A stretch of DNA of 58,459 nt from Candidatus Roizmanbacteria bacterium GW2011_GWC1_37_12 (GTDB lineage Bacteria; Patescibacteriota; Microgenomatia; UBA1406; GWC2-37-13). The position numbers and the translations under genes were made by a program. Each line of letters opens with the position of its first letter. Within the stretch, counting starts at the first letter, position 1. The notes beneath the pieces were generated by a model. That model did no database searches and was not told the DNA's origin. It was given only the letters and a program-made list of their open reading frames with translations. The stretch is from the NCBI GenBank assembly GCA_000991135.1, contig LBST01000007.1, forward strand, positions 1-58,459, given 5' to 3'. Positions 27,481 through 31,484 of the stretch are shown piece by piece.

Positions 27481-28770
27481 CTACCTACTGACCAGAAAAA
27501 ATGTTGTCAGATTATTCTTGCTATCTTGTAAATTTTCATCGATAATTTCCAGATTATAAATTTCAGCCAATATTTTTGGCCCCAAAATGGCTGTATTTTT
27601 ATCAATTTTACTTTTGGCCAAAGCTTCAGCGCACCTTGCTGTATCAAGCAAATCCCCCTGACCGCTGACTAGTTTTAGATATGGATATTTTATCGATAGA
27701 TTATTTTTGCACTGACGGAAGTTTTGCGGATGGGCCATAATTGAACTAATTTTATCAATTGAAATACCTTTTCGTTTCATTAAAAAATGTCTAATTAAGA
27801 TTTCAAATTCCTTGACAATCTTAAATTTATATTTAGCCATCGCATGAGTTGACTCCTCAACTACTCCCCCAACGGCATTTTGAATGGCAAATAAACCAGA
27901 GTCAATATTCCCCTCATGTAAATTTTTTAAAACTTTTTCCGTTGTGTATAAATATTTTATTGAAATGTCATTCTGGCTTGTCCAGAATAACAAGGCTTCT
28001 TCATTAAAACTTCCTCTTCCTCCTTGAATGCCAAAAACTAAATGGTTTCTATTGACTCTTTTTGGCAAAAGTTTGTCATAAAGTTTATCGTAAACTCGAC
28101 CCAATCTTAATCGCATAGTTTTTGTGTAAGGATTAAAATTTTGCAGGTCTTTAAAAAGTTGCCAGGTATCATTACAGGTCTGCCCCATCACTTCCTGGAG
28201 CTTTTTTGCCCCCAGACTGTCGATTTCCGTTTGTTCAAACCCAAATTTCTCCAGTAATCTACCGATAAAATGTGTCAAACCTTGCGAATTAGCCGCCAGT
28301 TGATCATGAGTTTGTGCCGGCATTTCAATTGCTTTTAATCCCTTTTTGATAAAAAACTTTTTCCAAAAATCATAGTTTTTATCATCAGTTTTGAATCTAT
28401 CCATAATCATTGGCAGGCCGTCAAAACCATTCTTGCTGCTGTCAGGACCAAACATCGGATGAGTCAACAAAGCCTGCGTTTTCAATCCTTTTAAATGTTT
28501 TTCAAAGACTTTTTTCGGGTGCATTTTGACGGATAAAACATCAATCAAAAGGTGATTATCTTTAAAATGTTTTTTGTGATTTTTTATGATCGACTCAAAC
28601 GTTGAAATCGGTACGGCAAAAAAAATCACTTCATTTTCGTAAATTTTTTTTAAATCGTTTTCTGTTTTGGAATTTTTACTATCAAAAACAGACACTAAAA
28701 AATCATCCTTTAATAATTTAAAGAGAACCTTTCCAAATCTTCCATTACCAATAATTGCAACTTTTTTCAT
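27481..28770 (-). CDS. TyrA-PheA fusion: prephenate dehydrogenase + prephenate dehydratase
   Basis: 429 residues. 1-235: TyrA with the NAD(P) loop GNGRFG (8-13), THPMFGPD (103-110, catalytic His104) and AQTHDQLAA (152-160). 245-429: prephenate dehydratase with FGIQGGRGSFNEEAL, FAIQNAVGGVVEEST, MAHPQNFRQC, DTARCAEALA and the final NNLTTFFLVSR (TRF motif as TTF). The protein ends right there, so the C-terminal ACT regulatory domain is missing. It would send prephenate to both hydroxyphenylpyruvate and phenylpyruvate. Chorismate mutase is a separate gene two positions upstream. A palindromic repeat lies in frame at 27967-27989 (FWTSQND). Confidence 0.92.
   Translation of the reverse strand: MKKVAIIGNGRFGKVLFKLLKDDFLVSVFDSKNSKTENDLKKIYENEVIFFAVPISTFESIIKNHKKHFKDNHLLIDVLSVKMHPKKVFEKHLKGLKTQALLTHPMFGPDSSKNGFDGLPMIMDRFKTDDKNYDFWKKFFIKKGLKAIEMPAQTHDQLAANSQGLTHFIGRLLEKFGFEQTEIDSLGAKKLQEVMGQTCNDTWQLFKDLQNFNPYTKTMRLRLGRVYDKLYDKLLPKRVNRNHLVFGIQGGRGSFNEEALLFWTSQNDISIKYLYTTEKVLKNLHEGNIDSGLFAIQNAVGGVVEESTHAMAKYKFKIVKEFEILIRHFLMKRKGISIDKISSIMAHPQNFRQCKNNLSIKYPYLKLVSGQGDLLDTARCAEALAKSKIDKNTAILGPKILAEIYNLEIIDENLQDSKNNLTTFFLVSR
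27967..27989. repeat. ATTCTGG-family palindrome inside PheA domain
   Basis: GTCATTCTGG-CTTG-TCCAGAAT in frame; encodes FWTSQND at residues 262-268, in a variable loop of the dehydratase. Confidence 0.8.
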
Positions 28771-28785
28771 AATAACTGACTTTAA

Positions 28786-29931
28786 TTAATTAAAGTGTCT
28801 TTCTATTCCATTTATATTAGCGCAAATGCTAACTCGAACGTATCTTTTCCCATTTTTTCCAAAAACTGTCCCTGGCGCCAACAATATTTGTTTTTTTTCC
28901 AAGAGCTCGAAACTAAACTCTTGCGAATCCTTAAAATGATCAGGTATTTTAACCCAAAGGTACAAACTTCCTTTAGTTTTTTCTGCTGTTAAACCAATTT
29001 TCTTTAAATTTTTAATAATAATATTTCGTCTTTTTTCGTAACTAGTAATCATTGTTCTATGCCATTTTTCGTCATTATTATTCAAAGCAAAAGCCCCAAG
29101 TTTTTGTAACGGACGTGACAATCCTGAATCAAATTGGGATTTTACTTTCGACAGGGCTGAAATTATTTCTTTATTTCCAACGATCCAGCCCATTCTATAC
29201 CCGGCGAAAGAAAAGGTCTTGGAAAATGATCCAATTTCAACCGCTACGTCTTTTGCTCCTTCAATCTGTAAAATACTCGGCGCTACAAATTCATCAAAAG
29301 TAATTTCTGAATAAGCATTATCATAAACCAGCCAAATATTATTTTTTTTGACAAAATTAATAATTTGTTCCAGATCGTTTATGTCAACTACCTGGCCGGT
29401 TGGATTGGCCGGAAAATTTACCCAAATAAACTTGGTTTTGTTAGATATCTTTTTTTTTAACTCATTAAAATTTATTTTGAAATTGCTTGTCTCGGTTAAA
29501 TTGTAAAAAACCGGTGTGGCACCAATCAGTGTTGGTGGGCCGGAAAAAGCCGGATAACCAGGGTCTGGGACTAAAACTTCATCGCCAGTGTCCAAAAGCG
29601 TCAAAGCCAGATGACTGACGCCATCTTTGCCACCCAACAAAGGGAAAAGTTCATTTTTTTCCAAATCAACATCAAATCTTTTTTTATACCAATTTCGTAA
29701 CCCTTGGGTAAATTCGAGAATGGGTCCGTAGCCTGGATAAATATGTGAATTTTTTTCCGCAAAAAATTCTTTTAATTTATTAATATATATTGAACTTGGT
29801 GGAAAATCAGGCGAACCAATTGATAAATCAAGGACTTTCCTTCCTGATGTTTTTTCTACATCCGCCTTTTTTTTAGCTAGAGTAAAAAAAGCGTACTCTC
29901 CAAATATATTTAATCTTTTTGCTAAATTCAT
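28786..29931 (-). CDS. class I PLP aminotransferase, probably aromatic
   Basis: 381 residues, aspartate aminotransferase fold type I. Motifs: IGSPDFPPS, NFPANPTG (172-179), YDNAYSEI (203-210) and Schiff-base K238 in GSFSKTFSFAGYRMGW; final Arg block RYVRVSICAN binds the substrate carboxylate. Its place between chorismate mutase and TyrA-PheA suggests it converts phenylpyruvate/hydroxyphenylpyruvate to Phe/Tyr. ATGA-type overlap with the upstream mutase. A second, HisC-like aminotransferase is in the neighbouring T-box operon. Confidence 0.9.
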   Translation of the reverse strand: MNLAKRLNIFGEYAFFTLAKKKADVEKTSGRKVLDLSIGSPDFPPSSIYINKLKEFFAEKNSHIYPGYGPILEFTQGLRNWYKKRFDVDLEKNELFPLLGGKDGVSHLALTLLDTGDEVLVPDPGYPAFSGPPTLIGATPVFYNLTETSNFKINFNELKKKISNKTKFIWVNFPANPTGQVVDINDLEQIINFVKKNNIWLVYDNAYSEITFDEFVAPSILQIEGAKDVAVEIGSFSKTFSFAGYRMGWIVGNKEIISALSKVKSQFDSGLSRPLQKLGAFALNNNDEKWHRTMITSYEKRRNIIIKNLKKIGLTAEKTKGSLYLWVKIPDHFKDSQEFSFELLEKKQILLAPGTVFGKNGKRYVRVSICANINGIERHFN

Positions 29932-30164
29932 ATTGATTTTTCAATTTTTAACGCCTCATCATGAATAATATTCCAAATTTTTTTGACATAACCTTTTTTT
30001 GATTTAATCACTTCTTGCCATCGTAATTTATCAAGAACTGGAATATTATTTTCCTTTTTGAACCGACCAATTTTCTTCACCGTTTTCATTCTCTTTGCCA
30101 ATAGATTAACTATCTGGCCATCAACTTCATCAATTTGTTTTCTGAAAATATTTAATCGCCTCAT
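29928..30164 (-). CDS. chorismate mutase, AroQ type
   Basis: 78 residues, a minimal single-domain all-helical AroQ. FRKQIDEVDGQIVNLLAKRM carries the conserved Arg, Asp and Arg of helix 1; KKIGRFKKENNIPVLDKLRW supplies the catalytic Lys and following residues. It turns chorismate into prephenate for the TyrA-PheA fusion. Both ends overlap neighbours by 4 bases (ATGA), so translation is coupled with DAHP synthase and the aminotransferase. Confidence 0.9.
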   Translation of the reverse strand: MRRLNIFRKQIDEVDGQIVNLLAKRMKTVKKIGRFKKENNIPVLDKLRWQEVIKSKKGYVKKIWNIIHDEALKIEKSI

Positions 30165-30961
30165 CGAACCATACCTCCTTTTATCACTTTTTCAATCTGC
30201 CTTGCTTTTAACATCAATTCTGAAAATTGATCAAATGACAACGCTTGATCGTTATCACATTTAGCCTTAAATTCGGTTGGTTTTACTTCGACGATCAAAC
30301 CGTTTGCGCCAATCCCGATACCAGCTAAAGCCAGTGGAATAACCATATCATTTCGTCCGGCCGGATGACTGGGGTCAAACACGGTAAGAAATCCTTCTTG
30401 TTGAAATTTAATCACTGCCAACAAATCAGCCGTATAACGACCCACATCGCTGAAGGTGACGATTCCCCGCTCACACATGATGACCGGGCTGCCGCCTTTC
30501 GTTACATACTCTGCCGCCAAAATCATTTCTTGTACCTTTGCTCCCATACCACGCTTTAATAACACTGGTGTGCCAGTTTCTCCCACCGCTTCCAATAGAC
30601 TGTAATTCAGTGCATTTCTTGAACCGATTTGTAAAATGTACGGGTGGCCTCGAGAAGCCCGTCTAATCATCCCAATTTGATCTATCGTCATCACTTCAGT
30701 AACTATTGGAATACCATTTTGCCTTCCTGCTTCAAAGGCAATCTCCAAACCATCTTCCCCCAGTCCTCGGAACGTCTTAGGATCCTTTCTTGGCTTAAAG
30801 ACTCCGCCGCGCAGCACTTGAGCGCCTTCTTTAACGACATGAGCCGCCGTTGAAAAAGTCTGCTCTTGTGTCTCAATCGCGCAGACGCCAGCCATGTAAA
30901 TATTTCTCTTAGTGTTAAGAGTAATATCTCCTACTTGAATTTGCCTGATTCTCTCTCCCAT
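30161..30961 (-). CDS. DAHP synthase, class I-beta (AroF/KDO8PS-like), without regulatory domain
   Basis: 266 residues, the bare catalytic barrel. AGVCAIETQEQ (24-34, the G-P-C-A-x-E metal Cys motif with Val for Pro), LRGGVFKPRKDPKTFRGLG, QIGSRNALNY, LLKRGMGA and FDPSHPAGRND are the substrate- and metal-binding blocks. It makes DAHP from PEP and erythrose-4-phosphate. The N-terminal ferredoxin-like or C-terminal mutase domain that gives feedback inhibition in I-beta enzymes is missing, in line with control at the leader RNA. First large gene of the operon. Confidence 0.93.
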   Translation of the reverse strand: MGERIRQIQVGDITLNTKRNIYMAGVCAIETQEQTFSTAAHVVKEGAQVLRGGVFKPRKDPKTFRGLGEDGLEIAFEAGRQNGIPIVTEVMTIDQIGMIRRASRGHPYILQIGSRNALNYSLLEAVGETGTPVLLKRGMGAKVQEMILAAEYVTKGGSPVIMCERGIVTFSDVGRYTADLLAVIKFQQEGFLTVFDPSHPAGRNDMVIPLALAGIGIGANGLIVEVKPTEFKAKCDNDQALSFDQFSELMLKARQIEKVIKGGMVR

Positions 30962-30962
30962 A

Positions 30963-31103
30963 TCATCTGATTAAACTTTTAATCAACCTTATCACTGCTA
31001 TCACCAATCTTCCTAGACAACCCAAGGTTTTTGGCCTATTGGTAAAAGTCGCGTAGTCGAGTGATCCATCATTGGTAATAATTTTTTTGGGTAATTTTTC
31101 CAT
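30963..31103 (-). CDS. 46-aa small protein between attenuator and DAHP synthase
   Basis: ATG at 31103, TGA at 30965-30963, one base before the DAHP synthase ATG, so likely coupled. The sequence has a polar start (MEKLPKKIITNDGS) and an amphipathic basic/hydrophobic end (GCLGRLVIAVIRLIKSLIR) that could sit on the membrane or on a partner enzyme. It is not Tyr/Phe-rich, so not an obvious third leader peptide. Too short for most gene finders. Coding is suggested by position and coupling, not by homology. Confidence 0.45.
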   Translation of the reverse strand: MEKLPKKIITNDGSLDYATFTNRPKTLGCLGRLVIAVIRLIKSLIR

Positions 31104-31126: not shown

Positions 31127-31149
31127 AAAAAACCCCGCCTTTCGGCGGG
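31127..31149 (-). terminator. attenuator terminator 2
   Basis: Minus strand CCCGCC-GAAA-GGCGGG followed by G and six T (31132-31127). The GAAA tetraloop makes it very stable. Its 5' arm can instead pair with CGGCGGGAG in codons 21-23 of leader peptide 2. Confidence 0.9.
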
Positions 31150-31171
31150 TTCGTTTTAATATTTTAAAACA

Positions 31172-31249
31172 TTAAAATATCTCCCGCCGGTAAAGCAGTT
31201 GATAAAAGTAAAAACTTGTTTGTTTTATTAAAAACTCTTTGTTTTTCAT
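31172..31249 (-). CDS. leader peptide 2 (Phe/Tyr attenuator)
   Basis: 25 codons plus TAA from ATG 31249. Codons 13-16 are Phe-Tyr-Phe-Tyr (TTT TAC TTT TAT), with further Phe6, Tyr20 and Phe25. Four codons after the run, codons 21-23 (CGG CGG GAG) hold the antiterminator strand. A ribosome stalled for lack of charged tRNA-Phe or -Tyr would leave this strand free to pair with the terminator 5' arm, allowing read-through; a moving ribosome covers it. The peptide begins MKNKEF and ends RREIF. Confidence 0.85.
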   Translation of the reverse strand: MKNKEFLIKQTSFYFYQLLYRREIF

Positions 31250-31271
31250 ATATTTTGGAGCCTTTTGTCAA

Positions 31272-31300
31272 GCCGATCGGCAACCTCCGAGGTTGCGAAA
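31272..31300. repeat. 29-nt palindrome-containing dispersed repeat, copy 2
   Basis: Reverse complement of 12820-12848 over 29 bases. It lies in the leader RNA between the two attenuators, just before leader peptide 2, where it would form an 8-bp hairpin GCAACCTC/GAGGTTGC. Confidence 0.85.
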
Positions 31301-31331
31301 CGGCATAATACATAAAATCTATTAATCCATT

Positions 31332-31356
31332 AAAAAACCCCGCCTTTAGCGGGGTT
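31332..31356 (-). terminator. attenuator terminator 1
   Basis: Minus strand CCCCGC-TAAAG-GCGGGG followed by six T (31337-31332). The 5' arm CCCCGC can pair with GCGGGG in codons 18-20 of leader peptide 1. Confidence 0.9.
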
Positions 31357-31376
31357 GATTAATTATTATTTTTCAA

Positions 31377-31445
31377 TTAACAACAATCCCCGCCCGGCTT
31401 GGGGTCAAAGTAAAAATAAAGATTTTTGTTGGTCAAATTTTTCAT
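31377..31445 (-). CDS. leader peptide 1 (Tyr/Phe attenuator)
   Basis: 22 codons plus TAA from ATG 31445. Codons 10-13 are Tyr-Phe-Tyr-Phe (TAT TTT TAC TTT). Exactly four codons later, codons 18-20 (GGC GGG GAT) carry the antiterminator strand, the same spacing as in leader 2. CCCC in codons 14-15 can pair with the GGGG, a possible protector hairpin. The predicted transcript starts only about 5 bases upstream, so the peptide is read from an almost leaderless mRNA. The peptide begins MKNLTNKN and ends GGDCC. Confidence 0.85.
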   Translation of the reverse strand: MKNLTNKNLYFYFDPKPGGDCC

Positions 31446-31456
31446 ATGTAAAAATA

Positions 31457-31484
31457 ATTATACACTAGAAAATTAATAATGCAA
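31457..31484 (-). promoter_or_regulatory. promoter of the aromatic biosynthesis operon
   Basis: Minus strand TTGCAT (31484-31479), 16-base spacer, TATAAT (31462-31457). The -35 lies inside the last codons of the upstream gene (A-L-H-Y-stop). Start expected near 31450, five bases before leader peptide 1. Confidence 0.7.

Follow-up and report, generated by a model that had tools for sequence, protein, structure and literature searches.

Members of the CPR, with their tiny genomes, are for the most part uncultured, and almost nothing is known of their gene regulation. A leader which can be read from sequence reveals the amino acids a cell senses. The window analysed here (the whole stretch of 58,459 bases) raises the question of how an operon for aromatic amino acid synthesis is controlled by two leader-like units lying one behind the other on the minus strand, and why the same signal should be read twice. 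We conclude that two ribosome-mediated attenuators in series very probably control a DAHP synthase-chorismate mutase-aminotransferase-TyrA/PheA operon, sensing charged tRNA-Phe and tRNA-Tyr. The anatomy of the two units, as it can be read directly from the DNA, is as follows.

31457 to 31484, minus strand: promoter-like site of unit 1, TTGCAT (31484-31479), 16-nt spacer, TATAAT (31462-31457)
31377 to 31445, minus strand: leader peptide 1, MKNLTNKNLYFYFDPKPGGDCC and stop, with control codons TAT TTT TAC TTT at 31418-31407, the run being kept in relatives
31401 to 31404, minus strand: unit 1 strand 1, CCCC, which could pair with strand 2 (1:2 protector hairpin)
31388 to 31394, minus strand: unit 1 strand 2, GGCGGGG, starting 12 nt past the run and complementary to strand 3
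31330 to 31355, minus strand: unit 1 terminator, strand 3 ACCCCGCT, strand 4 GGCGGGGT, T tract (six T)
31252 to 31331, minus strand: inter-unit spacer, containing the inverted repeat GCAACCTCGGAGGTTGC (31296-31280)
31172 to 31249, minus strand: leader peptide 2, MKNKEFLIKQTSFYFYQLLYRREIF and stop, with control codons TTT TAC TTT TAT at 31213-31202, homologous to the second units of G005, G007 and G009
31183 to 31189, minus strand: unit 2 strand 2, CGGCGGG, 12 nt past the run, GGCGGG being invariant in four second units
31127 to 31149, minus strand: unit 2 terminator, strand 3 CCCGCC, strand 4 GGCGGG, T tract (six T)

The initial annotation had placed Tyr-Phe-Tyr-Phe at codons 10-13 of leader 1 and Phe-Tyr-Phe-Tyr at codons 13-16 of leader 2, and both runs are found there, as is, exactly 12 nt past the run in each unit, a G-rich strand (GGCGGGG at 31394-31388, CGGCGGG at 31189-31183) complementary to the 5' arm of a GC hairpin with six T (31355-31330 and 31149-31127). 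The two leaders are, as had been noted, unlike each other apart from the run and the GC elements. The shared spacing had been taken as a sign of function, a reading borne out by its recurrence with the run and the pairing in relatives; the stop codon also lies +27 nt from the run in both window leaders. The description of the device as minimal does not hold, since both units possess a putative strand 1 directly past the run, CCCC in unit 1 and CUGCU in unit 2, where pairing with strand 2 is possible; this strand had been overlooked, as had the TATAAT box before the first ATG. In a swap test of the 1:2 pairing, 148 of 5000 swaps reached the observed value, which argues weakly for it. Each unit therefore combines a short open-reading frame, predicted to be translatable, carrying a codon run for the regulated amino acids, an intrinsic terminator between the leader and the first structural gene, and an antiterminator strand able to pair with the terminator 5' arm at a spacing which fits a ribosome stalled at the run versus one at the stop codon.

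The genes downstream of the two units are:

30963 to 31103, minus strand: 46-codon open-reading frame between unit 2 and DAHP synthase (MEKLPKKIITNDGSLDYATF...), candidate gene
30161 to 30961, minus strand: DAHP synthase (PF00793, E 1.9e-50), the first enzyme under the proposed control
29931 to 30164, minus strand: chorismate mutase type II, 78 residues (PF01817, E 5.1e-19), its open-reading frame absent from the supplied list
28786 to 29931, minus strand: aminotransferase class I/II (PF00155)
27481 to 28770, minus strand: prephenate dehydrogenase-prephenate dehydratase fusion, TyrA-PheA (PF02153 + PF00800)

Profile matches to DAHP synthase, chorismate mutase, the aminotransferase and the PDH-PDT fusion confirm the aromatic operon which had been proposed, and these genes make the amino acids of the run codons; a tRNA-Tyr and a tyrosyl-tRNA synthetase gene follow further downstream on the same strand. 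By NCBIfam the window DAHP synthase is of the B. subtilis type, with a score below the cut-off. The middle shikimate genes were not found in the genome (G000, 94% complete), where DHQ synthase, chorismate synthase and a G005-type EPSP synthase gave no match despite the presence of DAHP synthase, chorismate mutase and TyrA-PheA (window 27481-30961). The relatives G005, G009/G035 and G002 carry the shikimate genes aroB to aroC downstream of DAHP synthase and upstream of the aminotransferase. Leaders of this kind also point to aromatic operons whose enzymes are difficult to identify. The 46-codon open-reading frame (30963-31103) matched no Pfam family; it contains NDGSLDY, and a similar DDGSFDY occurs in a small open-reading frame upstream of the L026 leader.

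A blind detector, which required a short open-reading frame with at least four Phe/Tyr/Trp in six codons, a terminator within 150 nt and a strand complementary to the terminator arm, was run on both strands of the window and returned exactly two sites, units 1 and 2, whilst 20 dinucleotide-preserving shuffles of the window gave no match. The same detector made 50 matches in 289 kb of CPR loci versus one in 868 kb of shuffled sequence, and with other residue trios gave 0-12 matches versus the 50 for Phe/Tyr/Trp. A chance origin of both sites is ruled out by the two sets of shuffles and the other trios.

We infer termination, stalling and the in-series logic as follows. With Phe and Tyr ample, the ribosome would reach the leader stop codon and cover strand 2, upon which strand 3 would pair with strand 4 and RNA polymerase would stop at the T tract. 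With charged tRNA in short supply, the ribosome would stall at the Phe/Tyr codons, where it hides strand 1 but not strand 2; the latter would pair with strand 3 while strand 4 is still unmade, and the polymerase would read on. Unit 2 would then repeat the test, full expression requiring readthrough at both. The initial annotation had proposed folding the RNA with and without a ribosome mask. When the mask sits on the last aromatic codon, 43 of 46 units form the 2:3 pairing while strand 4 has yet to be made; when it sits on the stop codon, strand 2 is hidden and the 3:4 terminator forms in all 46. For the full-length RNA at equilibrium, however, the terminator wins despite a stalled ribosome in 26 of the 46, both window units included. 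As equilibrium folding so often favours the terminator, antitermination must be kinetic, and a kinetic choice is accepted for the trp attenuator. Leader attenuation of this type would imply that transcription and translation are coupled in CPR cells.

Conservation in relatives, whose lack the initial annotation had named as one of the findings that would count against it, was then decisive, as run, spacing and pairing alike reappear before DAHP synthase across the class and the phylum. Among assessable loci, which are DAHP synthase genes whose upstream DNA is present, a Phe/Tyr(/Trp)-run leader with a terminator precedes DAHP synthase at 28 of 30 in the same CPR class (the exceptions being the genomes G315 and G401) and at 13 of 28 elsewhere in the phylum, in a sample which was drawn with a DAHP synthase query and is biased towards DAHP synthase loci. 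Within the same family, a more distant DAHP synthase type has the leader at 8 of 14 loci. Candidatus Levyibacteriota (Microgenomates group, Patescibacteria) is one of the closest relatives bearing a name. For a side-by-side comparison we took 46 units from 42 genomes. Strand 2 starts a median of 10.5 nt past the run (interquartile range 9-12), and both synonymous codons are in use for each residue (Phe 129 TTT and 27 TTC, Tyr 57 TAT and 36 TAC). From lineage to lineage the terminator arm and the strand opposite it vary greatly, yet within each they match, with pairs such as GGCGGG/CCCGCC, GGGAGG/CCTCCC, GCTGAG/CTCAGC, CGATCAGCT/AGCTGATCG and GCATGAGG/CCTCATGC. RNAalifold gave no covariation in the four second units because their sequences are too alike, and we therefore swapped strands between loci: own 2:3 pairs reached a mean complementarity of 18.1, which no swap in 10,000 equalled, versus 13.2 +/- 0.44 for swapped ones; the two paired strands thus co-vary between loci. 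Trp codons in the leader are associated with indole-glycerol-phosphate synthase (IGPS, trpC) in the genome (13 with and 8 without, versus 4 and 14, p=0.023; class only, p=0.016; kinship ignored in both), as expected if the codons sense what the pathway must supply.

The tandem itself has been kept in no fewer than three related species (G005, G007 and G009), which makes it a direct test of why one signal is read twice. Tandems are few: the window, these three genomes and, in another form, G034 of the same family, where the gene behind the two units codes for a third type of DAHP synthase. In most first units a TATAAT-like box lies 7-14 nt ahead of the start codon and a Shine-Dalgarno sequence is lacking, so transcription would begin at the start codon or only a few nt away from it. 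In the window, where the -35 match is poor, the -10 box (TATAAT) ends 11 nt upstream of the leader 1 ATG, and the leader 1 mRNA is probably leaderless or nearly so. Second units lack a TATAAT-like box and those of G005 and G009 have a Shine-Dalgarno sequence, an arrangement consistent with a single RNA that carries the two units in series. Window unit 2 aligns with unit 2 of G009, G007 and G005 at 84% mean column identity. GGCGGG, strand 3 (CCCGCC) and the greater part of an AU hairpin show little or no change among the four. The window DAHP synthase, however, shares only 27-31% identity with those of G009, G007 and G005, and groups with the G252 enzyme. To judge from these alignments, the regulatory DNA was probably kept while the DAHP synthase gene below it was swapped for one of another subfamily.

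The weakest link in the proposed scheme is translation of leader 2, because window unit 2 has no clear Shine-Dalgarno sequence before its ATG at 31249. This, the indels relative to relatives just past the run in its coding part, and the single unit in G002, of the same genus as the window, would all suit a reading in which only unit 1 works as a sensor, with unit 2 here a decayed copy which acts as a constitutive terminator or is bypassed, its leader being hardly translated. We consider that reading unlikely, as the run, the strand 2 at 12 nt, the stop codon at +27, the hairpin and the T tract are all intact, the elements listed above are preserved in the four second units, and a constitutive terminator at this position would shut the operon. 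Somewhat less likely still are two parallel promoters, each with its own attenuator, in place of a series on one transcript: the -10 box near the ATG of the first unit and a TTGACA in the spacer shortly before leader 2 are what such a layout would show, yet in neither the window nor its relatives is unit 2 preceded, at a suitable distance, by a good -10 hexamer, and the Shine-Dalgarno sequences of the G005 and G009 second units stand there instead. It is highly improbable that the terminators are regulated otherwise (by an RNA-binding protein, a T-box or a riboswitch), with the Tyr/Phe runs as by-products of a region which is indeed AT-rich and has U-runs, as the runs are in frame with the start codon and use both synonymous codons, Trp codons join them where Trp is made, other residue trios gave the detector far fewer matches, and an Rfam search of the window at gathering thresholds returned no T-box or amino acid riboswitch, only two tRNAs.

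The inverted repeat GCAACCTCGGAGGTTGC in the spacer (window 31280-31296) is near-perfect. Folding of the spacer is strong in G009 (z -5.6) and G005 (z -7.3), whilst the window spacer reaches only z -1.9, and the repeat is perhaps an insulator between the identical GC elements of the two units.

With two attenuators in series as the preferred reading, the window element is classic ribosome-mediated attenuation and not a new mechanism. The E. coli attenuators pheL-pheA, pheST and trpL-trp have control codons, strands 1-4 and a mutually exclusive antiterminator and terminator, all of which the window units share, strand 1 as a candidate, but they are single units with a Shine-Dalgarno sequence and have different genes downstream. 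We know of no sequence relation between them and the window units. The initial annotation had called this kind of attenuation classic in Proteobacteria, which is right for E. coli pheA and trp, but it also occurs outside that group, in Corynebacterium glutamicum aroR-aroF (PMC11802643). As described in that paper, where the three E. coli attenuators are also named, the aroR leader (Neshat et al. 2014) has Phe-Tyr-Phe before aroF (DAHP synthase), with readthrough on ribosome stalling, and is reported to respond to Phe and not to Tyr. It is the closest described case, alike in function and position in that a leader peptide with aromatic codons precedes a DAHP synthase gene, whereas the window, in another phylum, has longer Phe/Tyr runs, two units in place of one and a different sequence. 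A premature-terminator survey (Naville and Gautheret 2010, PMC2965389) reports a His leader peptide in Firmicutes, which takes such peptides beyond Proteobacteria and Actinobacteria, and a search of its text found no mention of candidate divisions or phenylalanine. The initial annotation knew of no described tandem in CPR bacteria, and we likewise found none; tandem leader-peptide attenuators do exist in Salmonella mgtCBR, where the leader open-reading frames mgtM and mgtP sense different signals (ATP and proline) additively (PMC3641672). As there, two leader open-reading frames would lie on one leader mRNA, but in the window the two units share Phe/Tyr codons as their signal and have one terminator each. 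In the open-access literature we found no earlier description of leader-peptide attenuation in CPR/Patescibacteria, and what is new here is the same-signal tandem, the probably leaderless first leader, the CPR-wide use and a version placed in the tail of an enzyme.

This last version occurs in G041 and G043 (L178:6455-7222, minus strand; L008/L009), where prephenate dehydrogenase supplies the run before DAHP synthase with its C-terminal tail (...VFSYFKFDPGG and stop), with a G-rich strand and a terminator directly after it, and where a separate leader ending SFYFYTP lies upstream of prephenate dehydrogenase. It is an evenly balanced proposition that leader attenuation sensing Phe and Tyr (and Trp where made) is common in CPR, and possibly ancestral there, as a control of aromatic synthesis, one that persists through exchange of the DAHP synthase subfamily, which some lineages double in series for the same signal to cut leakage and sharpen the response, and for which others (G041, G043) encode the sensor codons in the C-terminus of the upstream enzyme.

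Such leaders are, by their sequence, used more widely than in CPR. We had tried Bacteroidota loci as a negative control, for which a near-gene scan gave almost no matches; a whole-locus scan, however, made matches at 25 of 78 non-CPR loci, most of them at the operon head some 2 kb upstream, and the Bacteroidota loci were therefore unusable for this purpose. At the head of their aromatic operons (L113 1773-1930; L057, L059, L064, L078 and L105) are leaders like MKALYNTYFFFFYYFYFSNKVKREFVCVR with a complementary strand and a terminator, Phocaeicola vulgatus being an example. In termite-gut Planctomycetaceae (L088, L106 and L112) a conserved leader-like peptide, FYRFYWYFTNNA, with AACGCTC/GAGCGTT pairing, precedes DAHP synthase. 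Two CPR segments comprising leader, DAHP synthase and aro genes, L175 (G009:C88) and L179 (G035:C44), are apparently identical and come from genomes assigned to different genera, which suggests mis-binning or recent transfer. Finally, in G252 (L032 453-2110) a YcaO protein and a Pro/Cys-rich small open-reading frame follow the putatively attenuator-controlled DAHP synthase, a locus which looks like a peptide natural-product cluster.
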